Positions 6,465-64,000 of a stretch of DNA of 64,000 nt are shown here, one piece after another. A model generated the notes under the pieces. That model was given only the letters and a program-made list of their open reading frames with translations, had not been told where the DNA came from and searched no databases. The stretch's first letter is position 1. Every line of letters starts with the position of its first letter. A program made the position numbers and the translations under genes. The DNA is from a virus, in IMG/VR virus record IMGVR_UViG_3300010430_000022, positions 1 through 64,000 of that record; one strand, 5' to 3'.

Positions 6465-6641
6465 ATGGCTGTTACATTTGATCTAGGAAATGGAACTACC
6501 TGCTCTGTTCAGGACAACTCTCAGATCGTCCAGACTCACGATGGCCCAAAGCAGGCTGACCAAGTCGTGCAGGGTGATCGCATCTGTAACATCACCGGCG
6601 AGCCCTTTGTCGAGGTCGTCGCACCACCGGTCGTGTCCTAA
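6465..6641 (+). CDS. Small Hint-like protein
   Basis: A 58-residue ORF with a good RBS (AGGAGG at 6455-6460 region) and a TAATG overlap with the next propeller gene. The core QTHDGPKQADQVVQGDRI closely matches the proteins at 1-114 and 11202. The T-x-x-GP...A-D-x-V-V-x-GD-x-(V/I) pattern is the one seen in blocks A/B of intein/Hint domains, where a Gly-Asp turn precedes a Val/Ile strand. No nucleophile at the first position and no C-terminal HN motif is present, so splicing is not expected. Function unknown. Confidence 0.65.
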   Translation: MAVTFDLGNGTTCSVQDNSQIVQTHDGPKQADQVVQGDRICNITGEPFVEVVAPPVVS

Positions 6642-11201: not shown

Positions 11202-11399
11202 ATGGCAACCACAGAAATTACCTACGAGCATCCACCTGGTAGTGGCTCTGAGGGCTGCAAGCGAATCTTCGATGACGCTTACGTTCTTCAGTCAGATCGG
11301 GGCCCTCTTCGTGCAGACGAGGTAGTGGTGGGAGACTGTCTCCAGACGACACCTCGTTACAAGACGCTGGTGCTCGCCGTCGCACCTGTGATGGAGTAA
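11202..11399 (+). CDS. Small Hint-like protein
   Basis: A 65-residue ORF sitting between two propeller genes with an RBS-like AGGAGC. The core LQSDRGPLRADEVVVGDCL aligns with the mini-proteins at 1-114 and 6465. The N-terminal half (EITYEHPPGSGSEGC) is unlike the others. No full Hint domain, splice junction or catalytic residue is visible. Recurrence of this core just upstream of propeller genes argues it is a real family rather than chance. Confidence 0.62.
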   Translation: MATTEITYEHPPGSGSEGCKRIFDDAYVLQSDRGPLRADEVVVGDCLQTTPRYKTLVLAVAPVME

Positions 11400-24455: not shown

Positions 24456-24905
24456 ATGACCTTGCGACGTAGATCCTTGCTTATCTTCGAGATGGATGAC
24501 CGTCTTCGAAGACAGCAACGTAACGCTGCCGCCAATCCAGGTGACGTAGACGCACAACGTGCTTTTGCGCAGAGTCGCAGGCGAGGTGCTACCACAGAGG
24601 TAAACAAGAAGCGTCCCATGCTTGGTCGAGGTCATACGGCTCGAACAGAACTACCTGACGGGGTAACGCTCTACTCCTCTTCGGTGCGACACGATGGTTG
24701 GTGGGGTGTTCATCACGGGCATCAGGAGCCTGACTCAAAGGATGTCTCAGATCACGGTCACGATCACGCACACAAGCTTGAATACGGCAAACAGGGCAAT
24801 ATCACTAAGGACGAGCCACCTCATCCCGATAAGGTGCGCGAGTTCCACGAGAAATACGTCGACCGCTTTCTAAACGGTCAAGCAAGTAGCAATCATGGAT
24901 CTTGA
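24456..24905 (+). CDS. Putative internal head protein with capsid-targeting motif, His-rich
   Basis: A 149-residue protein from ATG 24456. The N-terminus MTLRRRSLLIFE fits the recurrent L-x-R-x-x-L-L-x-E motif of this window, with a predicted prohead-protease cut after Glu. The next section is basic (DRLRRQQRN, QSRRRG). Near residue 90 a His/Asp cluster (VSDHGHDHAHKLEYG) could bind metal. An in-frame GTG at 24441 is an alternative start. It overlaps the next gene by 11 bases. Packaging in the capsid is inferred from the motif and from closeness to the head genes. Confidence 0.6.
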   Translation: MTLRRRSLLIFEMDDRLRRQQRNAAANPGDVDAQRAFAQSRRRGATTEVNKKRPMLGRGHTARTELPDGVTLYSSSVRHDGWWGVHHGHQEPDSKDVSDHGHDHAHKLEYGKQGNITKDEPPHPDKVREFHEKYVDRFLNGQASSNHGS

Positions 24906-25137
24906 GCGTACCCCGTTGCTGCTCGAACGGCGCGGCCGTACCCGCCACGCGAGGCACAAGGCCGCCGATATCCTTCGGTCTCGCAGCGGTAGAACCAAGA
25001 AGCGCAAGAACCGTGGAAGGCTTTCGCGCCTGATTGCTCGTGAAATGGACACTCCACAGCGCTCTCCTCTCACTGGGCTAGCAATGGGTAACTTCACCGG
25101 AGGTATGCCTGGCGGCGGGATCATCAAGCACGCATGA
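24895..25137 (+). CDS. Small basic putative internal head protein
   Basis: An 80-residue protein beginning MDLERTPLLLE, the clearest copy of the recurrent N-terminal motif; cleavage after Glu11 would fit the (L/I)-x-E rule of T4-type prohead proteases. The remainder is strongly basic (RRGRTRHARHKAADILRSRS, TKKRKNRGRLSRL) and ends in a Gly-rich tail. This is what a DNA-condensing internal head protein looks like. It is translationally coupled on both sides (overlap upstream, ATGA downstream). Confidence 0.65.
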   Translation: MDLERTPLLLERRGRTRHARHKAADILRSRSGRTKKRKNRGRLSRLIAREMDTPQRSPLTGLAMGNFTGGMPGGGIIKHA

Positions 25138-25490
25138 TCCGCCAGACGCTTCTAGTTGAGACCTTGGTCACCAGGACGATCACCCGTAGGGGCCCGGTGT
25201 TCATGTATCGCCGCCCCCAGGGCCCACCTGTCACTAGCGATGATTCGATTGATCGGTGGCTGCACAAGACCACTCAAGCCTTTGACTTCTCGCCGATGTT
25301 CAATGGGGATCAATATCAGTCGAGGATCGTCGCAGAGCGCTATCTAGCACACCTCAAGAAGGAATCTGCCCGAGAAGGCATGGACTGGGGAGAGGTTGCT
25401 AGTCGCCTCAAGCAGATCAGTCCTCACCTCCGCCGTGGCTTCCAGACCTTCTTCTCGTTCTTTGATGCGTCTGTTCGCACAAGCGGCTAA
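25134..25490 (+). CDS. Putative internal head protein
   Basis: A 118-residue protein starting MIRQTLLVE, a short form of the targeting motif (L-V-E then Thr). The rest is basic to neutral, with a helical section (AERYLAHLKKESAREGMDW) and an aromatic C-terminus (FQTFFSFFDAS). No family recognised. Its start overlaps the upstream stop (ATGA) and its stop overlaps the start of the Hint gene (TAATG), so the three small genes and the Hint gene form one translational run. Confidence 0.58.
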   Translation: MIRQTLLVETLVTRTITRRGPVFMYRRPQGPPVTSDDSIDRWLHKTTQAFDFSPMFNGDQYQSRIVAERYLAHLKKESAREGMDWGEVASRLKQISPHLRRGFQTFFSFFDASVRTSG

Positions 25491-26179
25491 TGCTCGACGC
25501 TGAGACCCTTATCACCACGCTCGCCGGGCCACGTCCCATCAGCGATTTCATTGATAAGGGTCCAGTCCGAATCTTCACCTGGAATGGTGAACGGGTCACT
25601 GTCGGAGAGGTCGAGGTCAAGGACTCGACGCGTCTGGTCATTCCGTTCCGCGTAGAACTCGATGACGGCTCAAAGCTTGTGCTCTGCACCGAGACACTGG
25701 TCTTGCTCAGGAACGGGGCCCCTAGGTTCCCAGAGCAGCTTGTCTCTGAGACTTCGTTGCTCCCCCTCTACACGAAGAGCGATTCGTCGGGCTATCCGGT
25801 CTACCAAGAACCTGGCGAGTGGCACCGAGCAGCCTTGACGCCCAGCGACCGCAATCGTTGGCGACGCGTCAGCCGCATGGTGGCTGAATGGAAACTGGGA
25901 CGAAGATGCGCGCCAGGAGACGTAGTTTCCTACGTTTCAAAGGACCGAATGGACTGTTCTCCTGAGAACTTGAAGTTCCATCGGAAAGAACGAAAGAAGA
26001 CCGAGAAAAAGGTCGGGTTTGCCGAACCGCTCTTCGAAGCGCAGCGGTTTCTCGACAGGTACAATCACAAGGTAGTCCGCACCTACCTTGACACTAGCCG
26101 TAGTTTGCTGTCGATTAGAGGTTTAGGAACGGCTAACCTATCGGTTGGCGGAGTCTTCGTCTCCGTAGACCCGGAGTAA
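25490..26179 (+). CDS. Stand-alone Hint (intein-derived) protein
   Basis: A 229-residue protein. The start MLDAETLITTLAGPRPISDF matches intein block A, but the initiator Met sits exactly where the splicing Cys1 should be. The end LGTANLSVGGVFVSVDPE matches block F/G but lacks the terminal His-Asn and the +1 nucleophile. Between them (~residues 100-165) lies a region resembling a degenerate HNH endonuclease insert (KDRMDCSPENLKFHRKERKK) without the catalytic His pair. Protein splicing therefore looks impossible. It stops three bases before the intein-containing portal gene. Confidence 0.72.
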   Translation: MLDAETLITTLAGPRPISDFIDKGPVRIFTWNGERVTVGEVEVKDSTRLVIPFRVELDDGSKLVLCTETLVLLRNGAPRFPEQLVSETSLLPLYTKSDSSGYPVYQEPGEWHRAALTPSDRNRWRRVSRMVAEWKLGRRCAPGDVVSYVSKDRMDCSPENLKFHRKERKKTEKKVGFAEPLFEAQRFLDRYNHKVVRTYLDTSRSLLSIRGLGTANLSVGGVFVSVDPE

Positions 26180-30782: not shown

Positions 30783-32654
30783 ATGACGACCAACACAATG
30801 AGCCCACAGGTAGAGCAGCGTTTCCGTGCAAACGCCAGCGCTACCCGTCGGCCTCTGGTCGACAACATGTTGGTGGAGTCTGAGGGCTTCACCAAGATGA
30901 CCGTCCTGGCCGAAGACTCTCAGAGCAAGGGCGCTCTGATTGTCGAAGGTCTGGTCGGTATCTGTGGAAAGGCGACGAAGAATCGTCGTCTCTACACAGA
31001 GTCGATCATGAAGCGAGAGATCAAGCGTCTTCAGGAACGGATCGATTCTCGGTCCCTCCTGGCTGCTGTGGATCACCCCACAGACGGCAAGTCGCGTATC
31101 CGTGAGGCTGGCGCCATCTGCGTTGGTCTCCGGTGCGAGGCCGACGGTCGGATCATCGGCAAGTACGAAATCGTCGAAGACTCGACCGGTGGTAAGGATC
31201 TCGCCGCATTCCTGCGTGCAGGTGCCTCCATTGGTATGTCCTCCCGTGGCCTGGGTTCGACCTCGGTCAACATGGAAGGCGTCCACGTTGTTGGCGAGGA
31301 CTTCAAGCTCCACGGCTTCGACTTCGTCGCTGATCCCGCTTGCGAGACGGCCTATCCCACACTGGTGTCTGAGGACGTCGACGCGGCACAGGTCGACGAG
31401 AACCAGCTTCGCGCAACCTTCGGCAACCTTGTCGAGCAGATCGAAGATCGCGCTCGCCAGGCTGGTGCCGAGATCGCTGAAGAAGAGGTTCGGGCTCAGG
31501 TCGAAGAGGAGTTCAAGTCGGCACTCGATGAGGCCGGTGGCAAGCTCCGTGAAGACATCAAGCTCCAGGTGGAGTCCGAGATCCGCGAACAGCTTCGCGA
31601 AGACTTCTCGGTCAAGCTCCTAAAGGCCCTCCAAGAGCAGCGGACTCAGATCGAGTCTGTTGTGCGCTCAGAGCTTCTCTCCGACCCCAAGGTCGGTGCC
31701 GCCAAGCGCTTCATGGAAGACCTCGCTCAGAAGCTCGTGCCCTTCGCACCGGCGCCCGACCAGCAAGTCGTCATGGACGATTACGAGGCCAAGCTGGCTT
31801 CGCTGCGTGAGGACGTCGAGAAGAACGAGGCTGCGGTCGGCGCCAAGGACAGCGTCATCAACGAGATGGCCGAGCGCGTTGAGGTCGCCGAACAGGCCGC
31901 TCGCTCGCTGGGCTACAAGCTCTACATCGAGCGCTGCCTTGAGGGTCGCGAGAACGCTGCTCACCTCCGTGAGATGATCGGCACCCCTGACGGCAGCGAG
32001 AGCGCCGACGATCTCCGTGATCGCGTCAGCGCAGTTCTGAACCAGGTCTCCGAGGCAGAGGATCAGGCCCAAGCGCAAGCTCAGTCCAAGATCAAGCTCA
32101 AGGAGCACAAGGCCGATCTGGCCCGCAGGAAGGCAGAGGTCGCAACCGAAGACTTCGACCGTTTCCGCTCTGAGATGGAAGGACGCTTCGAACGTCTCTC
32201 CACTCGCATGGGATCGCAAATCCGCGAGAAGGATCGTGCGCTCTCCGAGGCTCTCGGCCATATCGAGAACCTAGAGAGCACAGTGGGCCAGTCCCGTCGT
32301 CAGCTTCAAGAAGCTGACCTTCGCGCATACGCGGCCCGACGCGTTATCGGCCACCCCCGCGCAAACGACATTCTCTCCCTCGTTGAGAGTGGACGAGTGA
32401 CCTCGAAGGACCAAGTCCAGCAACTTGCCGAGCAGTGGGACAACACTGCAAGCGAGCCTGGCGGGGTCAGTGAGCGCATTCGTCGTTCACTTGGGCGAGG
32501 CCGTGAGGCCCCCACTGAGGACGACCAACAGCGGTTTACTCAACTAATGGAAGACCAGCAGACCATTCCCGGTCTTGAGGGCTTCGACACCACCATGGGA
32601 GAACTCCGCGCGCTGTCGGGGATCGATCATGACTCTTTCAATGGCAGATTCTAA
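30783..32654 (+). CDS. Prohead protease (T4 gp21-like) fused to scaffold-like coiled coil
   Basis: A 623-residue protein. Residues ~35-200 match the T4 gp21-type serine protease: His98 in AAVDHPTDGKSR, Ser153/Ser154 in GMSSRGLGS, and GFDFVADPAC carrying the likely Asp. Residues ~205-560 are long charged coiled-coil helices typical of a head scaffold. The enzyme would mature the head by cutting scaffold, capsid and internal proteins after Glu. The protein contains NMLVES near residue 29, a possible self-cleavage site. In T4, protease and scaffold are separate genes; here they are one polypeptide. It lies 12 bases upstream of the capsid gene. Confidence 0.85.
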   Translation: MTTNTMSPQVEQRFRANASATRRPLVDNMLVESEGFTKMTVLAEDSQSKGALIVEGLVGICGKATKNRRLYTESIMKREIKRLQERIDSRSLLAAVDHPTDGKSRIREAGAICVGLRCEADGRIIGKYEIVEDSTGGKDLAAFLRAGASIGMSSRGLGSTSVNMEGVHVVGEDFKLHGFDFVADPACETAYPTLVSEDVDAAQVDENQLRATFGNLVEQIEDRARQAGAEIAEEEVRAQVEEEFKSALDEAGGKLREDIKLQVESEIREQLREDFSVKLLKALQEQRTQIESVVRSELLSDPKVGAAKRFMEDLAQKLVPFAPAPDQQVVMDDYEAKLASLREDVEKNEAAVGAKDSVINEMAERVEVAEQAARSLGYKLYIERCLEGRENAAHLREMIGTPDGSESADDLRDRVSAVLNQVSEAEDQAQAQAQSKIKLKEHKADLARRKAEVATEDFDRFRSEMEGRFERLSTRMGSQIREKDRALSEALGHIENLESTVGQSRRQLQEADLRAYAARRVIGHPRANDILSLVESGRVTSKDQVQQLAEQWDNTASEPGGVSERIRRSLGRGREAPTEDDQQRFTQLMEDQQTIPGLEGFDTTMGELRALSGIDHDSFNGRF

Positions 32655-32666
32655 GGAGGGACACCC

Positions 32667-34112
32667 ATGTTCCAGGCACGTTCAATGATTGCCGAGAGTG
32701 CAGAAGGGTGCGCCCTCGCCGATCACGGTATGGTTCGACAGTACGTCAACAAGTGGGCTCCCCTGCTTGAAGGCATCGAGTCCGAACTCGACAAGTTCAC
32801 CCCTCGTGGGCAGGCCCAGTATGTGAAGTCCGTCGCGGCCTTCATGCTGGAGAACCAGGCTCGACACCTCAAGCGGCTCTCTGAGGAGACTCGGGCGCTG
32901 TCGGTCGGCCCGTTCTTGAAGTTCGTCTTTCCCGTCATCCGACGCGCCGCCGTGCGGTTGGTTGCGACGCAGATTGCGTCCGTCCAGCCCATGACCGGTC
33001 CCATCGGTGGCGTGGCCTTCTACAGGCCACGTTATGCGACGGACAAGGGTCAGGTCGTCGCCGGCCAGGAGATGAACAAGACGTTCAACAAGTGGTACTC
33101 GTCGAACTTCATCGACGGCGAAGGCATTGGCACCGGCAACGGCACCAACACCGTCTTCTCCTCGAACCTGAAGTTCCCTCGGGTTCTCTCCGGCACCCTC
33201 CGGGTCCTGGTTCGCACGGCTGGCACGACCCAGACGGGCACCCTGGTCGGAACTGACAACGGCGCTGGCGGTCTGACCGCTGTTGCTGGCGGGCCTCTCG
33301 CTGGCGGCACGATCAACTACCAGGCTGGTCAGCTTCAGGTCAACTTCGCCGCCGCTCCGGCGACGACCGACGAAGTGCTCATTGAGTACAAGTACGACAA
33401 CGAACTGAACCCCCGGATCCCCGAAGTCCAGTTGGACATCGCGATCCAGGAGATCCGTGCGGAGTCGCGCAAGCTCAAGAGCCTGGCGTCCGTCGAGGCT
33501 GCGGACGACCTCCGCGCCCTCTGGGGACGTGACATCGACGCCGACCTCGTTGCTCACATGAGTGACGAAATGACGGCGGAGATCGACCGCGAGATCGCCG
33601 GCACGGCGCTGAACGCAGTCGAGGGTCTGGCCATGCTGGACTGGGACCGTGCGACTCCTTCGGGCGTCTCCGATCCTGAGCACCTCCAGTCGCTCGTGAT
33701 CCGCATGTCCGAGGCGAGCCACATCGTTCACCGTCGCACCCAGCGTGCGCCGACGAACTGGTGCATCACCTCGTCCGAGGTCGCTGCCCTCCTGGAGACC
33801 ATGCCCGGATTCGCTTCCGTGGACGATGGTCACGTCTACCAGGGAGGCATCATGAAGGGAGGTGTCCTCAACAGGAAGTGGGTTATCTACGTTGATCCCC
33901 TCTTCCCGCAGGACGAGATCCTCATGGGTTACCAGGGTCCTTCGATCCTGGACACCGGCATGATCTACTCGCCCTACGTGCCGATGGAGATCACGCCTAA
34001 CTTCGTTGACCCCAACGACTTCAGCCTCCGTCGCGCGATCCGCACGCGTCACAAGATCACCCTGATCCGGCCGGAGTTCTTCTCGAAGGTCAAGATCTCG
34101 AACCTCAACTAG
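32667..34112 (+). CDS. Major capsid protein (T4 gp23-like)
   Basis: A 481-residue protein with RBS AAGGAGGG. HK97-fold/gp23 landmarks are ASVQPMTGPIGGVAFYR near residue 104 and VQLDIAIQEIRAESRKLKSL with DDLRALWGRDIDADL near 255-290, as in gp23 proteins. An Ala/Gly/Thr-rich insertion (~residues 150-243) separates these blocks and may be a surface domain. The N-terminus MFQARSMIAES holds an I-A-E site at residue 10, suggesting a much shorter propeptide than the 65 residues of T4 gp23. A strong terminator follows. Confidence 0.92.
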   Translation: MFQARSMIAESAEGCALADHGMVRQYVNKWAPLLEGIESELDKFTPRGQAQYVKSVAAFMLENQARHLKRLSEETRALSVGPFLKFVFPVIRRAAVRLVATQIASVQPMTGPIGGVAFYRPRYATDKGQVVAGQEMNKTFNKWYSSNFIDGEGIGTGNGTNTVFSSNLKFPRVLSGTLRVLVRTAGTTQTGTLVGTDNGAGGLTAVAGGPLAGGTINYQAGQLQVNFAAAPATTDEVLIEYKYDNELNPRIPEVQLDIAIQEIRAESRKLKSLASVEAADDLRALWGRDIDADLVAHMSDEMTAEIDREIAGTALNAVEGLAMLDWDRATPSGVSDPEHLQSLVIRMSEASHIVHRRTQRAPTNWCITSSEVAALLETMPGFASVDDGHVYQGGIMKGGVLNRKWVIYVDPLFPQDEILMGYQGPSILDTGMIYSPYVPMEITPNFVDPNDFSLRRAIRTRHKITLIRPEFFSKVKISNLN

Positions 34113-35056: not shown

Positions 35057-36745
35057 GTGTATCAAGCACATACGCTACTGATCCTCGAAGACCTACTTGG
35101 GTCTCGGACCTTTCGTCGACTCATCGAGGGCAAAGACCCTGCGCCTGATCCCGAGCGCCAGTCGCGCCCGGTCATTCCTCCACATCTCCGCACGAGCCAT
35201 GAGGAGGACACGCACCCAGCGATGAAGCTGCCGGGCCACAAGTTCCCTCAAGCAGTGCATGACGTCGCGCACTCCATCAAGAAGGCTGGTGGACGCGCGA
35301 TGATGGTCGGCGGCTACGTCCGCGATACGCTGGAGAAGCATTTCCATGGAGGGGACGAGCCCTCCAAGGACTACGACATGGAAGTCCATGGGATGCACCC
35401 AGATCACCTGGATAAGCACTTGGACTCCATCGGACGAGTGGACAGAGTCGGCAAGGCTTTCGGGGTGATGAAGCTCACACACAAGAAGCACGACTTTGAC
35501 ATCTCGATCCCCCGCCGAGACAACAAGGTCGGTAAGGGGCACAAGGGCTTCATGCCCGAGCCTGATCCGCACATGACCATTGGCGAGGCTGGTCATCGTC
35601 GGGACTTCACCATGAACTCGGTGGCGATGGACCCACACACTGGGCATGTCTACGACCCGCACCACGGCATCAAGGACATCAAGAGTCGGACGCTACGGGC
35701 TACAGACCCCAAAGCGTTTGCTGAGGATCCTCTGCGTATTCTGCGTGGCGCTCAGTTTGCCGCCCGCAAGAAGATGACGGTTCACCCACACACCATGAAG
35801 CTGATGCAGAACGCCGGGCACGAGCTAAAGGATCTGCCTCGTGAGCGTGTTGGTGTCGAGTGGAAGAAGCTTCTCATGAAGGGCAAGCACCCTGAGCACG
35901 GCCTAAAGGTCTTGCACGACTCGGGTGCGCTGAAGCATCTTCACCCTGAGCTTCATGCACTGACAGACCACCAACACGATCCGCACGATCACACGAAGGG
36001 CACTTCGTTTGAGCACACAGGTCGGGCACTGAGCCATGTTGTGCATGCGACTAAGGGGCTGCCCGATGACTCTCGCGAATCGATCCACCACGCCACGCTG
36101 ATGCATAACGTAGGGCGACCGGCAGGTACGGATGACCACGCTTCGGCTGGCTCAGCTATCTCTCGTTCTACTGGCAAGAGCCAGTTTGATCTGGAGAAGA
36201 ACGTCGCCACCAAGACTCATAAGCTCGTAGGCGAGCACGGTGCTCCTCACGAGATTCACGAGGCACACAAGCGCGGCGAGAACACAGACGCGCACATTCG
36301 CCATCTCGCTCACCGCCTAGGACCGTCGAAGCCAACGGCCCACGACGGCTCGTCTATTGGTGATCTTCTACACGTCGCTCACGCGTCACATGTGGCAGAT
36401 GGTAGTGGTGACCCTCACCACGCTGGTGACTTCTTGCGCAAGCGTGCCAAGGCACTTGGGGTTCACGACGGGCCTCAAGAGCGGCTTGTTACCGGCAAGC
36501 ACCTGAAGGCAGATGGTGTCAAAGGCGGACGTCGTATGGGAAGAGCCTTGGACCACGCCCACCAGAGGCAGTTGGATGGTGATGTCACTACTCACGAGGA
36601 GGCGAAGAAGGCTGCACTCGATCACCTCGCACACCTCGAACGTGAAGAGGGGCCTGAACAAGGGAAGAAGCAGAAGGTCAATCGTCGTAAGAAGCCTCCA
36701 TTGGCGGAGAACTACTCGCTCTACGCACGCGTCTTTAGTGCTTAG
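35057..36745 (+). CDS. CCA-adding enzyme / poly(A) polymerase homologue with targeting motif
   Basis: A 562-residue protein. Its class II nucleotidyltransferase head has GGYVRD at residues 85-90, the metal-binding D105-Y-D107, HDFDIS at ~145-150, RRDFTMNSVAMD at 181-192 and EDPLRILRGAQFAAR at 223-237, all landmarks of tRNA CCA-adding enzymes. A downstream HD-like region is degenerate (LMHNVGRP where HD enzymes have H-D). The N-terminal ~55 residues are extra and start MYQAHTLLILED and RLIEG, matching the candidate capsid-targeting motif. The predicted reaction is CTP/ATP addition to tRNA 3' ends; virion packaging is inferred. The C-terminus is His/Lys-rich and ends YARVFSA. Confidence 0.8.
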   Translation: MYQAHTLLILEDLLGSRTFRRLIEGKDPAPDPERQSRPVIPPHLRTSHEEDTHPAMKLPGHKFPQAVHDVAHSIKKAGGRAMMVGGYVRDTLEKHFHGGDEPSKDYDMEVHGMHPDHLDKHLDSIGRVDRVGKAFGVMKLTHKKHDFDISIPRRDNKVGKGHKGFMPEPDPHMTIGEAGHRRDFTMNSVAMDPHTGHVYDPHHGIKDIKSRTLRATDPKAFAEDPLRILRGAQFAARKKMTVHPHTMKLMQNAGHELKDLPRERVGVEWKKLLMKGKHPEHGLKVLHDSGALKHLHPELHALTDHQHDPHDHTKGTSFEHTGRALSHVVHATKGLPDDSRESIHHATLMHNVGRPAGTDDHASAGSAISRSTGKSQFDLEKNVATKTHKLVGEHGAPHEIHEAHKRGENTDAHIRHLAHRLGPSKPTAHDGSSIGDLLHVAHASHVADGSGDPHHAGDFLRKRAKALGVHDGPQERLVTGKHLKADGVKGGRRMGRALDHAHQRQLDGDVTTHEEAKKAALDHLAHLEREEGPEQGKKQKVNRRKKPPLAENYSLYARVFSA

Positions 36746-46481: not shown

Positions 46482-46766
46482 GTGACGCTCGAACGCACCA
46501 ACCTCATCATGGAGACCGGCCCCTACGGGGGCGGGGGCGGTGGTCGTTCGGCTGGTGGATTCGCTACGCCTGTTTCGGGCCGGCGGTTCAATACCTGGCC
46601 GTTCGTCCCCAACGCTAAGCTTCTGATGCAGAAGGATCAGGAGGCTCAGCGCCGCCGCGAACGTCTTCGCGAATTGGCGTTAGGATGGTTCATGCACGGT
46701 GGCATGGGGACCGCCGGCTCGACGAACGGTGCGTCTAGTGGCTCAGCCCCAGGATCAATCTTCTAG
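46482..46766 (+). CDS. Small Gly-rich protein with capsid-targeting motif
   Basis: A 94-residue protein with a GTG start and N-terminus MTLERTNLIMETG, a clear variant of the LERTPLLLE motif (I-M-E site). It continues with a Gly run (YGGGGGGRSAGG), a short basic helix (KDQEAQRRRERLRELAL) and a Gly/Ser tail. Cleavage after Glu11 would leave a small Gly-rich internal protein. It lies eight bases after the RFMAEG-repeat gene. Confidence 0.6.
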   Translation: MTLERTNLIMETGPYGGGGGGRSAGGFATPVSGRRFNTWPFVPNAKLLMQKDQEAQRRRERLRELALGWFMHGGMGTAGSTNGASSGSAPGSIF

Positions 46767-59202: not shown

Positions 59203-59885
59203 GCGATCCGAGGTTCATCGTTATCTCCGGCCTGATCGGTGTTGGTAAGAGCACGCTCTGTAAGAAGCTGGCAGAGCTTCTCGACTACGAACCGATCTTC
59301 GAGCCCGTCGAGGACAACCCCTACCTGGAGAAGTTCTACAAGGACCCCAACAAGTGGGCCTACCCGATGCAGGAGTTCCTCAAGCATCGGCGCTTCGCGG
59401 CCTATCAGTACGCCGCCTGGGGGATCAAGCACGGAGCCTTCAAGGGTGTGGTCCTCGACAGGTCTATCCACGAAGACACCGTCTTTGCAGAGATCAACGC
59501 CAAGATCGGTACCATCGACGCTCTCAACTGGAAGACCTATCTCCAGGGCTTCAACGACTTCCAGACGTTCCTGCCTGAGCCAGACGTTTACATCTATCTC
59601 GACGCCAGCCCAGAGACCTGTCACGCTCGGATCCTGGAGCGCGCTCGGCCGGCAGAGCAGCAGACCGGCTTCGAGGGTGATCCCGAAGACGCGCCGAAGG
59701 GAATCCCTCTCGACTACCTCCGGACCTTGCACCAGGGCTACCAGGACTGGCTGAAAGAGATCGCGCCTCGGATCCCCACAGTCAAGCTCGACTGGACGCG
59801 CTTCAAGACCACTGAGGACGCTTGGAAGTGGGTCAACGGTCAGATCGACGAGCGCAGTCGCTTCACACGGAGCTTGGTGGTCTAG
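59199..59885 (+). CDS. Deoxynucleoside kinase
   Basis: A 228-residue P-loop kinase of the dNK/dCK/dGK family. Walker A GLIGVGKST at 11-19, EPVEDNPYLEKFYKDP near 35, DRSIHEDTVFAE near 88, and a lid region with RARPAEQQTG near 148. These are standard for deoxynucleoside kinases. It phosphorylates deoxynucleosides (salvage), feeding dNTP synthesis with the dNMP kinase and RNR. It converges on the minus-strand 2H gene with a 4-base stop overlap and no terminator. Confidence 0.88.
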   Translation: MSDPRFIVISGLIGVGKSTLCKKLAELLDYEPIFEPVEDNPYLEKFYKDPNKWAYPMQEFLKHRRFAAYQYAAWGIKHGAFKGVVLDRSIHEDTVFAEINAKIGTIDALNWKTYLQGFNDFQTFLPEPDVYIYLDASPETCHARILERARPAEQQTGFEGDPEDAPKGIPLDYLRTLHQGYQDWLKEIAPRIPTVKLDWTRFKTTEDAWKWVNGQIDERSRFTRSLVV

Positions 59886-60442
59886 TAGCCACGCTTTGGC
59901 AACGCCCTAATCGTTCCGGTTAGGGGCAGGTGTCCGTGTTTGATCTTGCCTCCGACCTTACGAGGCACCGCAACACGATCTCCACGCTGCTGGGCCAGCA
60001 GATCGTTGCTCTGCACCGGCTTAGCTCCCGGCGCGTGCGAGATCGTGATGTGTGGGTGCTCCTTCTTCGTGAGGTGTTCGACACCTGAGACGCGAACAGC
60101 GTGGATCCCCATCTTCTCATCGTCAGCATGATGCGTCGCGTGGAGGTTCACTGTCTTCTTATGTTCCGGTGTGTTGTGGAACCGGTCGAGATCCTCTTGG
60201 GATGGGTCGTAGTTCAGCGTGACGTGATCGGCGGTTCGCGACTTGTACTTCGACGGGAAGTGCTGCGCCAACGCCTTCTTAGAGCCGTGGCTCAGTTCAA
60301 GCGCAAGATAGTGGCTGTCTGGGGAGTAGGGCGTTCCGCTAGCCGGCGCCGACTGTCGGTCAGACTTCGTTCGACGCTCACGGGGCGTAGGCGTTCCGGT
60401 CCCAAAGCCTTCGATCAAGAGAGGTGTTCGGCGAAGATTCAT
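59882..60442 (-). CDS. 2H phosphoesterase with capsid-targeting motif
   Basis: A 186-residue protein. Two H-x-T motifs define a 2H phosphoesterase: DHVTLNYDP (His73, Thr75) and EHPHITISHAP (His131, Thr133). The N-terminus MNLRRTPLLIE|G fits the recurrent targeting motif with cleavage after Glu11, and ~30 basic disordered residues separate it from the catalytic domain. Substrates could be 2',3'-cyclic phosphate RNA ends (RNA repair) or cyclic nucleotides, as for the T4 anti-CBASS protein Acb1. It is translationally coupled to the upstream HAD gene (4-base overlap). Confidence 0.75.
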   Translation of the reverse strand: MNLRRTPLLIEGFGTGTPTPRERRTKSDRQSAPASGTPYSPDSHYLALELSHGSKKALAQHFPSKYKSRTADHVTLNYDPSQEDLDRFHNTPEHKKTVNLHATHHADDEKMGIHAVRVSGVEHLTKKEHPHITISHAPGAKPVQSNDLLAQQRGDRVAVPRKVGGKIKHGHLPLTGTIRALPKRGY

Positions 60443-61107
60443 GAGGTTTTTGGCATCGATCCGGCAGATCCCCAGTGCTCGTCGTCGACGTGATGCAGCG
60501 TGTGCTTCACTCCGAGGTCACTGAGAACCTTCCTGAAGTGTTCAATGTGCTCGGGACGGTCGTCCCACATGTGAACGTGTTTGAGATGTGGGTGCTCTGA
60601 ATGGAAACGCTTGAGCATGTGCCCCTTCCACTCAGCAGTCTTCATAGGCTTCTTCTTACCGTCCTGCGGAGGCTTCAGGAAGAGGTCGTGACCGTGCTTG
60701 TGTCCCCTCACCCCGAGCTTGTGCAGGGTATGAGACACAGCGTCTTGCATATCCGGCTTGGCGACGCGTCCGGTCATGACCACGACTCTGCTATGCGGAG
60801 ATGCTTTAGCGGCGTGATAGTTCTTGAGCGTGTGCTCGATTGGGTGCGTCTCGAACGGGTGACGAAGCGTCTTGTGGTCCCCCCACCAGTCACCAGGCTT
60901 GCTGCCTCGTGGATTCGTCCTGCTACGTGAGTGGTAGCGATAGAGATCCTTGTTCTGCGATGTTGGCTCAGGCGTCCTGGCCAGGGTGCCGTCCATGTCG
61001 AAGATGTGGAGGTGTTTCGCATTGCGAGACTCAATGAGGAGCGCAACCTCCTCTGCTCGGATGGCCTCAAGAATCGGGCTGATTGCTCGAATGGTGCGAC
61101 TTCTCAT
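60439..61107 (-). CDS. HAD-family phosphatase with targeting-motif-like N-terminus
   Basis: A 222-residue HAD-type hydrolase: HIFDMDGTLART (Asp37, Asp39), VVVMTGR at 108-114 and WDDRPEH at 181-187. The layout, with LKP before the last motif, resembles the HAD domains linked to RNA-repair proteins (HAD_SAK group). The first ~30 residues are extra and contain SPILEA and LLIES, (L/I)-x-E sites like the targeting motif. The likely reaction is phosphate removal, perhaps from RNA or nucleotide ends. It starts directly after the stop of the basic gene at 61108. Confidence 0.78.
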   Translation of the reverse strand: MRSRTIRAISPILEAIRAEEVALLIESRNAKHLHIFDMDGTLARTPEPTSQNKDLYRYHSRSRTNPRGSKPGDWWGDHKTLRHPFETHPIEHTLKNYHAAKASPHSRVVVMTGRVAKPDMQDAVSHTLHKLGVRGHKHGHDLFLKPPQDGKKKPMKTAEWKGHMLKRFHSEHPHLKHVHMWDDRPEHIEHFRKVLSDLGVKHTLHHVDDEHWGSAGSMPKTS

Positions 61108-61395
61108 CTATCCCTTATGCCCCGATCCTGGCAGCTTGGCACGTTTCACTACGCGGCCCTTGATCTTCGACTTCAACTGTCGCCTCTTCTCGGGTGGAAC
61201 GAAGATCAACTTTCCCTTACGGAAGATGTATTGGGGATGCTTCTTCGACCACCTTTTCCGCTCCTGTTGCCAGAGCCATTTAGCTGCTCGCTTAGCCCCA
61301 AAGGTGGCAGAGGGCCGTTTCTTGGACATCCGCTCCTTCGACGATTGGCGACGGACCTGTAGTGCCTCGCACAGAAGTGGTGTCCGGGTAAGCAT
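61108..61395 (-). CDS. Very basic putative internal head protein
   Basis: A 95-residue protein with N-terminus MLTRTPLLCEA, a clear targeting motif (L-C-E site). After it the protein is extremely basic (RRQSSKERMSKKRPSATFG, KWLWQQERKRWSKKHPQY, KRRQLKSKIKGRVVKRA). Such a protein would bind and condense DNA inside the capsid. It is the first gene of the minus-strand trio, read away from the divergent 61458 gene. Confidence 0.68.
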   Translation of the reverse strand: MLTRTPLLCEALQVRRQSSKERMSKKRPSATFGAKRAAKWLWQQERKRWSKKHPQYIFRKGKLIFVPPEKRRQLKSKIKGRVVKRAKLPGSGHKG

Positions 61396-61444
61396 GGACC
61401 CAGTCTACCTAACTACTTAGGTGCCAGCGACCATGTCTTTCGGC

Positions 61445-61450
61445 TAGAAT
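61445..61450 (+). promoter_or_regulatory. -10-like TAGAAT in the divergent spacer
   Basis: TAGAAT lies eight bases before the first ATG of the 61458 gene, in the 62-base spacer between divergent genes. TGCCAG, 17 bases upstream, is a weak -35. If this is a -10, transcription would begin near the first ATG, favouring the in-frame ATG at 61479. On the other strand TAGACT (61405-61410 region) could serve the minus-strand trio. Confidence 0.35.
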
Positions 61451-61457
61451 CGGGAGG

Positions 61458-62726
61458 ATGACGCAAGGTAAACCGAAGATGAGTCGTGCGGCGCTACGAT
61501 GCGGCTCTGTAGCTGTGAGTGTGCTCAAGCCGGGCACTAAACGCTATGAGCGGTGGTTGGCCAGGCGAAACCGCCGCCGGGCTGCGACCATGCGGAAGAA
61601 GCAAGAAGAGGACACCATGTTCGAGGAGCGAGAAGCTGACAAGACCGGGGCGCTCACCTGCGGCGTCTTCCTCCCGCTCCCCTATGACCTCGCCAAGGAC
61701 TTCCCGGATAAGAGCGAGCACGACGACTCGGTGCCGCACTACACACTGCTCTTCGTGGGCCCTTGCACCCCTGCGCAGTTCAAGACGCTTGTCATGGTCA
61801 TTCGAGGTGTTGCGGTCAAGTTGAAGCCATTCCCTATGGACCTTGCCTCCTACGGCGAGTTCATGAACAAGGAGGGAATGAAGATCTCCAACATGGGGCC
61901 TAGCTTGATCGCTCGATTCCGAATGGCGGCTCTTCACGGCATACTCCGACGCGCCGTCGAGTCGCTGGCTAAAGGGGTCACGGTGAAGCACACCTACGGA
62001 CCTGGAGAGTCGAAGTCGATCCCATACGAAGCCCAGTTCAAGCCTCACGCGACCCTGGCTTACCTTCCGCGCATGATGCCCTACCGAGGCCCGAAGCCAA
62101 CTGGTAGTTGGAACGTCACTGAGCTTGAGGTCTGGGGCCACGAGAAGGTCCGGATCCCGCTCGGCAAGACCCTAGCGCGCCAGCCTATTGGCCTGACGCG
62201 TGATCCCATCAAGTTCGATTACCCCATGGCCGTCCCTGAGGTCTCGACTGGCAAAGGCAAGGGCAAGCCCAAGCTGGAGGACAGGATTCCTGGTGGTCTG
62301 GCCGATAATTCCGGCCCCGACGATTTCGACCCCAAGCAACTCGCGAAGGGCGTCAAGGTCGAGTTGGAGCACACCAGCAGCCGCGCCATTGCTACAGAGA
62401 TCGCCATGGATCATCTGAAGGAGGACCCTCGCTACTACTCCAAGTTGGAGAAGATCCATACCGAAAGCACGTCGTCGGGCAACATCGCTGCGCCAAACGT
62501 GAAGAAGTGGGGAGAGGCGTTCTTGCGCGAACCGCTGCACCTGCGAGCACGCAGCGGAGATCCATTCCTCCAGGGAGAGGATGTGGTCGGCGGCTCCATG
62601 GGTGCCATGGGTAAGGGGGTCGGTGGCTCCAGTGGGGATATCGGTCTCGACGGATCTCTGCCCTACCTAGAGGTGCAGAAGCAGATCGACAAGAAGCTGC
62701 GCCGGAAGAAGCTCAAGGGCCTGTAG
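61458..62726 (+). CDS. 2H phosphoesterase with DUF5661-like C-terminal domain
   Basis: A 422-residue protein; starts at ATG 61458, 61479 or 61617 are possible and the first is only just downstream of GGGAGG. After a basic ~60-residue N-terminus the catalytic domain has PHYTLLFVG (His94, Thr96) and FKPHATLAYLP (His197, Thr199), the two H-x-T motifs of 2H phosphoesterases. Residues ~290-335 (FDPKQLAKGVKVELEHTSSR then IAMDHLKEDPRYYSKLEKIH) resemble the phage domain DUF5661. It would act on cyclic phosphates in RNA or nucleotides. It overlaps the next gene by one base. Confidence 0.75.
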   Translation: MTQGKPKMSRAALRCGSVAVSVLKPGTKRYERWLARRNRRRAATMRKKQEEDTMFEEREADKTGALTCGVFLPLPYDLAKDFPDKSEHDDSVPHYTLLFVGPCTPAQFKTLVMVIRGVAVKLKPFPMDLASYGEFMNKEGMKISNMGPSLIARFRMAALHGILRRAVESLAKGVTVKHTYGPGESKSIPYEAQFKPHATLAYLPRMMPYRGPKPTGSWNVTELEVWGHEKVRIPLGKTLARQPIGLTRDPIKFDYPMAVPEVSTGKGKGKPKLEDRIPGGLADNSGPDDFDPKQLAKGVKVELEHTSSRAIATEIAMDHLKEDPRYYSKLEKIHTESTSSGNIAAPNVKKWGEAFLREPLHLRARSGDPFLQGEDVVGGSMGAMGKGVGGSSGDIGLDGSLPYLEVQKQIDKKLRRKKLKGL

Positions 62727-63043
62727 TGCTAGAGCGTACCCCCCTGCTCCTTGAACGAGACAAGAAGCTCGCCTTCCACGGCGGTTCACTCAACCGACAC
62801 ACCCCGCGGGAGAGAGCCTGGCTCCCAAAGCGCTATCGTGCGAAGCACAAGGATGGGCATTTCCGTCGGAACCCTAAGGGGAAGCTCAAGAAGCGCGCCG
62901 GTGATCCTTTGCGGGATGAGCCGCTTCGCCACGACATCGAGAAGCGCGCCAGAAACCGCCACAGGCACTCTCACGTTCACTCCGACGTCTCCCTAGACCT
63001 TATGCGGACTGAACTTCTGCTGGATCACGACAAGAAGACGTGA
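62726..63043 (+). CDS. Small basic putative internal head protein
   Basis: A 105-residue protein with GTG start overlapping the upstream stop. N-terminus MLERTPLLLER is one of the best matches to the recurrent motif (cut expected after Glu10). The rest is very basic with many His (RERAWLPKRYRAKHKDGHFR, RARNRHRHSHVHSD). The C-terminus LMRTELLLDHDKKT echoes the motif. Probably packaged and DNA-binding (inference). Confidence 0.68.
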   Translation: MLERTPLLLERDKKLAFHGGSLNRHTPRERAWLPKRYRAKHKDGHFRRNPKGKLKKRAGDPLRDEPLRHDIEKRARNRHRHSHVHSDVSLDLMRTELLLDHDKKT

Positions 63044-63251: not shown

Positions 63252-64000
63252 ATGGCTAACAAGGCAGTTTTCGGTAGCGCACAGCGTGGCCGCAAGGTCC
63301 CCGAGACCGACACCAAGAACAAGGCCGGTGGCGTCGCGTACGCATTCGGTCCCCAGCACGCCCTGGCGCAGCTTGCCTGCACCGGAACCTTCAACGACAC
63401 GTTCTACGGCAAGGCCGTCGACCAACTGGAGGGCATCCGCAAGGCCGCCGACCAGTGCTCGCCGGAGTTCATCGCTAAGTGTGCCGTCTACGCCCGTGAG
63501 CGTGGCTACATGAAGGACATGCCGGCCGCTCTGGCCGTCATCCTGTCCAAGGCCGATCCGGTTCTGTTGGACAAGGTCTTCGACCGGACCATCGACAACG
63601 GCAAGCAACTTCGGAACTTCGTCCAGTTCATCCGTTCGGGCGCCTTCGGGCGTAAGAGCTTCGGCTCCGGCCCGAAGCGGCTGATCGCACGCTGGTTCAA
63701 CCAGCGCTCGGACGAGGCGATCTTCCGCGCTTCCGTCGGGAACTCCCCGTCGCTCGGTGACGTCCTCAAGCTGGCTCGCGTTTCGGGTAAGGCCGTTTCG
63801 CCACAGCGTCGTGCTCTCTACGGTTACCTGATCGGTTGTCGCGCTGCGGCTCTTGGTGAGGAACTGGAGCAGGTCACCAAGACCGAGGACGGCAAGACTC
63901 GTCGCACCAACCGCTTCAATCCAGCCGATCTCCCTGAGATCGTCAAGGGCTACGAGGCGTGGAAGCGCGGCGAGCGGACCGGCGAGGTCCCGAACGTCGA
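63252..64000 (+). CDS. TROVE-domain (Ro60-like) RNA-binding protein, 5' part
   Basis: The ORF runs off the window; 249 residues are visible. The sequence shows TROVE features: GGVAYAFGPQHALAQLACTG near residue 26, FIAKCAVYARERGYMKDMPA near 72, LRNFVQFIRSGAFGRKSFG near 119 and LIARWFNQRSDEAIFRASVG near 144, with SLGDVLKLARVSG. TROVE proteins are HEAT-ring RNA chaperones that bind misfolded RNAs and Y RNAs; phage copies are known in some actinobacterial phages. RBS AGGAGG lies 7 bases upstream. The usual C-terminal VWA domain, if present, is outside the window. Confidence 0.85.
   Translation, partial: MANKAVFGSAQRGRKVPETDTKNKAGGVAYAFGPQHALAQLACTGTFNDTFYGKAVDQLEGIRKAADQCSPEFIAKCAVYARERGYMKDMPAALAVILSKADPVLLDKVFDRTIDNGKQLRNFVQFIRSGAFGRKSFGSGPKRLIARWFNQRSDEAIFRASVGNSPSLGDVLKLARVSGKAVSPQRRALYGYLIGCRAAALGEELEQVTKTEDGKTRRTNRFNPADLPEIVKGYEAWKRGERTGEVPNV

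Follow-up and report, generated by a model that had tools for sequence, protein, structure and literature searches.

Putative RNA-end healing enzymes, some with a candidate T4-like packaging leader, in a phage with a T4-type head

The window analysed here is a stretch of 64,000 nucleotides, positions 1-64,000 of the 74,465-base IMG/VR virus record IMGVR_UViG_3300010430_000022, whose remaining 10 kb were also read. We suggest that this phage encodes a set of enzymes for healing broken RNA ends, and that several of them might be tagged at the N-terminus for packaging into the head and injection with the DNA; judging from sequence, we put the probability of this statement as a whole at about 0.5. 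Part of the set lies in a minus-strand operon (59882-61395) of three co-directional open reading frames, the second of which directly adjoins the first and shares 4 nt with the third, and in the genes next to it:

61108..61395, minus strand: very basic protein of 95 amino acids (isoelectric point, pI, 12), the first gene of the operon; leader MLTRTPLLCE/A (start MLTRTPLLCEA)
60439..61107, minus strand: HAD phosphatase of 222 amino acids, Swiss-Army-Knife family, a putative RNA 3'-phosphatase (PF10307, phrog_415)
59882..60442, minus strand: probable 2H cyclic phosphodiesterase of 186 amino acids (2H-1); leader MNLRRTPLLIE/G, protein start MNLRRTPLLIEG
61458..62726, plus strand: 2H phosphoesterase domain with LigT-like fold and a C-terminal DUF5661 (2H-2), without leader
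62726..63043, plus strand: basic protein of 105 amino acids; leader MLERTPLLLE/R

Results

The two operon proteins on either side of the HAD phosphatase have in common with the basic proteins starting at 24895 and 62726 the stretch RTPLLxE, within residues 4-11, as part of a leader of 10-12 residues with the general form [RHQ][TS]..LLxE. A wider pattern, [RKHQ][TS]x0-2[LIVM][LIVM]xE, scored in the first 16 residues of called genes, was found in 9 of 71 genes compared with 2 of 1129 internal windows (Fisher p 3e-10), figures that overstate the evidence, as the motif was picked after the first cases had been seen and was widened with further ones. An earlier version of the pattern gave 9/71 genes versus 2/684 windows and no match among 20 tail-side genes; residue shuffles yielded a mean of 0.29 and a maximum of 4, against 8 observed. 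The carriers are otherwise unrelated proteins, including the major capsid protein, 2H-1 and a CCA enzyme, and all but one of the nine are basic (pI 9.4-12), the capsid protein being the sole exception. Outside the operon region they include:

24895..25137, plus strand: basic protein of 80 amino acids; leader MDLERTPLLLE/R, kept in relatives G001 and G006
25134..25490, plus strand: basic protein of 118 amino acids; leader MIRQTLLVE/T, with MNRTPLLLE/T in the G006 ortholog
35057..36745, plus strand: CCA-adding tRNA nucleotidyltransferase; leader MYQAHTLLILE/D
46482..46766, plus strand: basic protein of 94 amino acids; leader MTLERTNLIME/T, the same in G001

The window also encodes T4-type head genes, comprising a portal (phrog_213 match), a prohead protease and a major capsid protein:

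30783..32654, plus strand: prohead protease (Peptidase S77; PF03420 6.4e-14, phrog_207 4e-32) fused to a long scaffold-like tail, with the sites NMLVE/S and ALIVE/G in its own N-terminus
32667..34112, plus strand: T4-type major capsid protein (phrog_138 1.5e-57), whose N-terminus, MFQARSMIAE/S, fits the leader pattern

The nearest named relative of the capsid protein is found in LR756511, a huge phage of 595 kb (33% identity), with T4-like phages more distant; 12 close relatives in IMG/VR are 76-98% identical. The capsid stretch KWAPLLEG was considered as a processing site and dropped as evidence of cleavage, as T6 gp23 has NKWKPLLEGEG at the equivalent place.

In phage T4, about 10 N-terminal residues, the capsid targeting sequence (CTS), suffice to bring internal and even foreign proteins into the head, where the head protease cuts the CTS off and from which the internal proteins are then injected (PMC7697877, PMC9026906). 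The internal proteins of T-even phages form a diverse anti-defence set with the leader as their only common feature (PMC3012670; for Ip2 and Ip3, PMC12373910). The features expected of a T4-like CTS are present here: a short leader, with an end like that of a prohead-protease site, is shared by unrelated proteins (the motif being post hoc), and the genome has a T4-type head and an S77 prohead protease. Packaging is suggested because otherwise unrelated proteins have the leader in common, because it looks like the capsid N-terminus and ends in [LIM]xE, and because the S77 protease is encoded in the genome. We consider it probable that the leader directs 2H-1 and the CCA enzyme, at the least, into the head. 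Virion delivery had been proposed in a first-pass annotation of this DNA, and it gains support at the sequence level from the CTS-like leader on repair enzymes and the capsid protein, together with the S77 protease in the window. That annotation had also ascribed targeting-like N-termini to all three operon proteins; the leaders indeed occur far above chance, but that of the HAD phosphatase, with its sites SPILE/A and ALLIE/S, is akin to RTPLLxE and not identical to it.

The leader recurs on orthologs in related phages. In the CCA enzyme of relative G001 it is kept as MFTPRTLLILE, while the linker behind it has diverged. In LR756511, 13 of 140 genes start with a T4-CTS-like stretch, compared with 21 of 1459 windows; among these is a HAD_SAK protein that starts MNLNFRQYVEGL, and a DUF5661 protein there starts MKTFSEWLEAD. 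The HAD_SAK proteins of LR756504 and LR756502, however, begin directly at the domain, so that tagging of this family is not universal.

These data bear on a rival explanation, in which the phage produces its repair enzymes only after infection, inside the host, like T4, and the leaders are signals for prohead assembly or for something else that has no bearing on the delivery of repair activity, or, on the HAD phosphatase and a polynucleotide kinase (PNK)-like protein of the same record, chance matches to [LIM]xE. Such RNA-repair composition is a standard trait of jumbo phages (PMC7824862), and the HAD_SAK homologs without leader fit this explanation, as does the mild enrichment of the general motif [LIM]xE[AGSDT] (12/71 versus 65/684, p 0.06), which by itself is too common to be of use. 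The strict leader, by contrast, is about 70-fold enriched and sits on 2H-1, on the CCA enzyme and also on the capsid protein, and leaders are kept while the linkers behind them diverge. We regard synthesis in the cell alone as rather unlikely.

The enzymes themselves point to RNA. The HAD phosphatase matches HAD_SAK_1 (PF10307) at E 1.4e-13, with a bit score of 51.6 (cut-off 25.6), which places it in the family, and phrog_415 (polynucleotide kinase) at 2e-10; its catalytic motifs DMDGT37, TGR112 and WDD181 are intact. No close homolog was found in IMG/VR, GTDB genomes or fragments of the nearest relatives. The CCA enzyme matches phrog_2244 (1.3e-64), PolyA_pol (1.8e-15) and NF008137 (1.6e-44), and two further genes of the record belong to this group:

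63252..64994 of the record, passing the window end at 64000, plus strand: Ro60/TROVE and vWA protein of 580 amino acids, next to the 2H-2 region
73232-73963 of the record, minus strand: PNK-like P-loop protein (AAA_33 1.3e-16, weak Pnkp matches)

The Ro60 protein matches vWA_Ro60 (1.2e-10), TROVE (1.3e-6) and Rsr (3.4e-14). The PNK-like protein, for which a homolog search returned none, has a looser form of the leader, RTLPLVE/S. Leaving aside two doubtful calls of very short length, no gene of the record lies on the minus strand besides the operon and the gene for this protein. The 74-kb record also holds an array of about 20 tRNA genes and a transfer-messenger RNA (tmRNA). Sets of this kind, with standalone Swiss-Army-Knife HADs, 2H proteins, CCA enzymes and TROVE proteins, are carried by jumbo phages (PMC7824862). 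The earlier proposal of RNA-repair enzymes is supported by a phosphatase of the RNA-repair HAD family that is accompanied by a PNK-like kinase, a CCA enzyme, Ro60, the tRNA array and tmRNA, and the gene set probably serves RNA-end healing.

Polynucleotide kinase/phosphatases act on DNA as well as on RNA. It could be hypothesized that the HAD protein, as 3'-phosphatase, and the PNK-like protein, as 5'-kinase, process breaks in the phage's own DNA, with the 2H proteins unrelated to this task. In this reading's favour, other phages have fusions of a topoisomerase IB module with 2H and with HAD_SAK domains. Against this, the HAD protein falls in a Swiss-Army-Knife family described for RNA repair, and RNA is also indicated by the 2H protein of the operon, the CCA enzyme, Ro60, the tRNAs and the tmRNA; a role in DNA-end processing seems very improbable.

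Several observations stand beside this gene set. The tmRNA (record 65886-66301, or L002 5887-6302; Rfam 130 bits) adjoins the tRNA array, and its tag peptide as predicted by ARAGORN ends in AALV and not in the usual LAA-type end. We discarded as probably false a tRNA-Arg that ARAGORN predicts at 63634-63714, since the Ro60 reading frame runs across it and its score falls short of the Rfam gathering threshold. A SIR2-family protein is encoded near the Ro60 gene (L002 11514-12548). In L084, an IMG/VR phage of 322 kb, the Ro60 protein shows 41% identity to the one here; roughly 4 kb downstream of its gene, a similar SIR2-like protein is encoded (L084 15666-16535), and between the two genes lies one that we read as macro-domain-like.

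The remaining operon proteins are less clear. Profile search returned no family match for the 95-amino-acid basic protein. For 2H-1, a match to phrog_36523 (8e-8) and the motifs HVT73 and HIT131, both kept without change in Sinorhizobium phage Phosso and in L070, two diverged relatives, make a 2H protein probable; one homolog search gave a single relative only, and profile comparisons linked it neither to 2H-2 nor to any PDB chain. The trio originally described at this locus holds for the three open reading frames, the basic protein and the clear HAD phosphatase, while the assignment of 2H-1 depends on a sub-threshold Pfam match and two HxT motifs.

The divergent gene was rightly read as a second 2H phosphoesterase, having two HxT motifs (HYT94 and HAT197) and a predicted LigT or cyclic phosphodiesterase (CPDase) fold. 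Its 2H domain is of LigT/2_5_RNA_ligase2 type (E 1e-4), followed by the DUF5661 (E 2e-10); codon usage favours a possible later start at 61617. The structure model (predicted local distance difference test score, pLDDT, 79) matches LigT 5ldm at E 8e-6 with probability 1.0, which puts the protein in the 2H superfamily. LigT, bacterial CPDase and Usb1 lead the fold ranking, followed by viral 2'-5' oligoadenylate (2'-5'A) phosphodiesterases (4ye2, 4rpt, 5af2), and Acb1 (7t27, E 6e-3), at position 45, is not the closest match. The nearest curated family, below cut-off, is TIGR02258 (RNA 2',3'-cyclic phosphodiesterase, E 1e-4).

The relatives of 2H-2, 48-51% identical, are 2H domains within proteins of 1305-1750 amino acids that also bear UvrD-type helicase, putative metallopeptidase and DUF5661 modules; a more distant relative is fused to topoisomerase IB, and Rctr197k joins 2H, DUF5661 and pyrophosphatase in a single protein of 2039 amino acids. 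These count as polyvalent proteins in the sense of PMC5512222, for which virion delivery has been proposed, with the 2H domain acting as an RNase or in degrading 2-5A or cyclic nucleotides (PMC5512222). The homologs combine 2H with other conflict modules, and 2H-2 itself has just 2H and DUF5661. Given this kinship, and since such 2H domains are reported not to accompany RNA ligases (PMC5512222), 2H-2 may act differently from 2H-1.

This brings up a third alternative, in which one or both 2H proteins would be injected early and degrade cyclic oligonucleotides or 2'-5' oligoadenylates in the manner of Acb1, blocking CBASS or type III CRISPR. The membership of 2H-2 in the polyvalent 2H family, for which a nucleotide-degrading or RNase role was proposed (PMC5512222), and the presence of viral 2'-5'A phosphodiesterases and Acb1 among its fold matches speak for it. 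Nevertheless, LigT, bacterial CPDase and Usb1 all outrank Acb1, the closest curated family acts on RNA, and 2H-1 shares its operon with an RNA-repair HAD. Destruction of cyclic-nucleotide signals, the other role offered in the first-pass annotation, finds no support for the trio; for 2H-2 it is conceivable through the polyvalent kinship, yet the fold lies nearer to LigT, CPDase and Usb1. We consider counter-signalling improbable, and favour it less than virion-packaged RNA-end healing.

One topoisomerase IB module is joined to a HAD_SAK domain in the huge phage LR745208 and to a 2H domain in another (L030 5965-7491, L069 6001-10038), which suggests that HAD_SAK and 2H can replace one another as modules of proteins that are injected. 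In L022, L026, L034 and L072, DUF5661 either forms part of putative prohead protease/scaffold proteins (hit H10 is annotated DUF2213) or stands behind T4-CTS-like N-termini (MEFVKTYLEFINEQ, MKTFSEWLEAD), so that the head interior may be where this module belongs.

Among the tail or head genes, short proteins at 6465-6641, 11202-11399 and 25490-26179 have Hint/intein-like starts (T..GP..AD.V..GD), with counterparts in relatives (L050 1602, L059 9635). The portal and ribonucleotide reductase genes of G001 are much longer than those here, as if intein-bearing.

Discussion

From the domains, intact motifs, and leader enrichment and conservation that we observe, we infer the following course for the chemistry, packaging and injection. 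The damage would come from an anticodon nuclease of the host or from another RNase that works without metal, leaving 2',3'-cyclic phosphate and 5'-OH ends. The cyclic phosphate would be opened by a 2H enzyme, the terminal phosphate taken off by the HAD phosphatase, and the 5' end phosphorylated by the PNK-like kinase; the CCA enzyme would restore tRNA 3' ends, Ro60 might bind damaged RNA, and an RNA ligase, of which this fragment has none, would seal the break. The N-terminal leader of 10-12 residues would take the proteins into the prohead core, where the S77 protease would remove it, as with the T4 CTS. In its fullest form, in which a T4-like packaging tag sits on the whole pathway (2H-1, HAD, PNK-like and CCA enzymes) and repair is pre-made before anticodon nucleases act, the proposal is tentative, and we hold it at somewhat less than even odds.

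A number of points weigh against virion-packaged RNA-end healing, in addition to the post hoc choice of the motif. The leaders of the HAD and PNK-like proteins are divergent and missed by the strict motif, 2H-2 and the Ro60 protein have none, and the CCA ortholog of relative G003 also lacks it. For 2H-1, the match to PF08302 (the fungal tRNA-ligase CPDase domain) is sub-threshold (E 2e-4, 21.2 bits versus 23), and the structure model, at pLDDT 41, gives no usable fold. Kinase-like and phosphatase genes of a T4-type PNK/ligase system are present, but the three main RNA ligase families (PF09414, PF09511, PF01139) had no match in the 74-kb record, which as a fragment makes this weak evidence; RNA ligases are present in LR756511 and LR745208, and those of LR756511 have no clear leader. 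Finally, 2H domains of the polyvalent type are reported not to occur together with RNA ligases (PMC5512222).

Defences that cut tRNA or rRNA block the making of new phage proteins, so that repair enzymes in need of translation would be at a disadvantage, whereas enzymes delivered ready-made would not. If virion-packaged RNA-end healing is true, the internal-protein strategy of T4, which acts against restriction enzymes, would be widened to include mending the translation machinery, and the proteins that phages of this group inject could be listed by a simple search for the shared leader. Packaging tags are known from T4, RNA repair from jumbo phages and 2H domains from polyvalent proteins; tagged repair enzymes appear to be new, as we did not find a packaging tag on such enzymes described in the open-access papers searched.

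Comparison with known systems

The system most resembles the CTS-bearing T4 proteins IPI, IPII, IPIII and Alt, in that some ten N-terminal residues are common to unrelated, mostly basic proteins in a phage with a T4-type head, an S77 prohead protease and a site ending in [LIM]xE. It differs in the leader, here RTPLLxE, and in the cargo, which here would be RNA-repair enzymes, as opposed to the restriction inhibitors of T4. Like the sets for RNA repair found in T4 and in jumbo phages (PMC7824862), it comprises a Swiss-Army-Knife HAD, 2H proteins, a PNK-like kinase, a CCA enzyme, Ro60/TROVE and a tRNA array, while the fragment lacks a ligase and a leader is found on the CCA enzyme and 2H-1. 2H-2 is close to the 2H domains of polyvalent proteins, multidomain chains with helicase, topoisomerase, pyrophosphatase or DUF5661 modules (PMC5512222), but is itself a small two-domain protein, and the other activities are here encoded by separate genes with a shared leader. 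Acb1, the T4-type anti-CBASS 2H nuclease, is alike in its 2H fold and two HxT/S motifs, and differs in being a lower fold match for 2H-2 than LigT, CPDase and Usb1.

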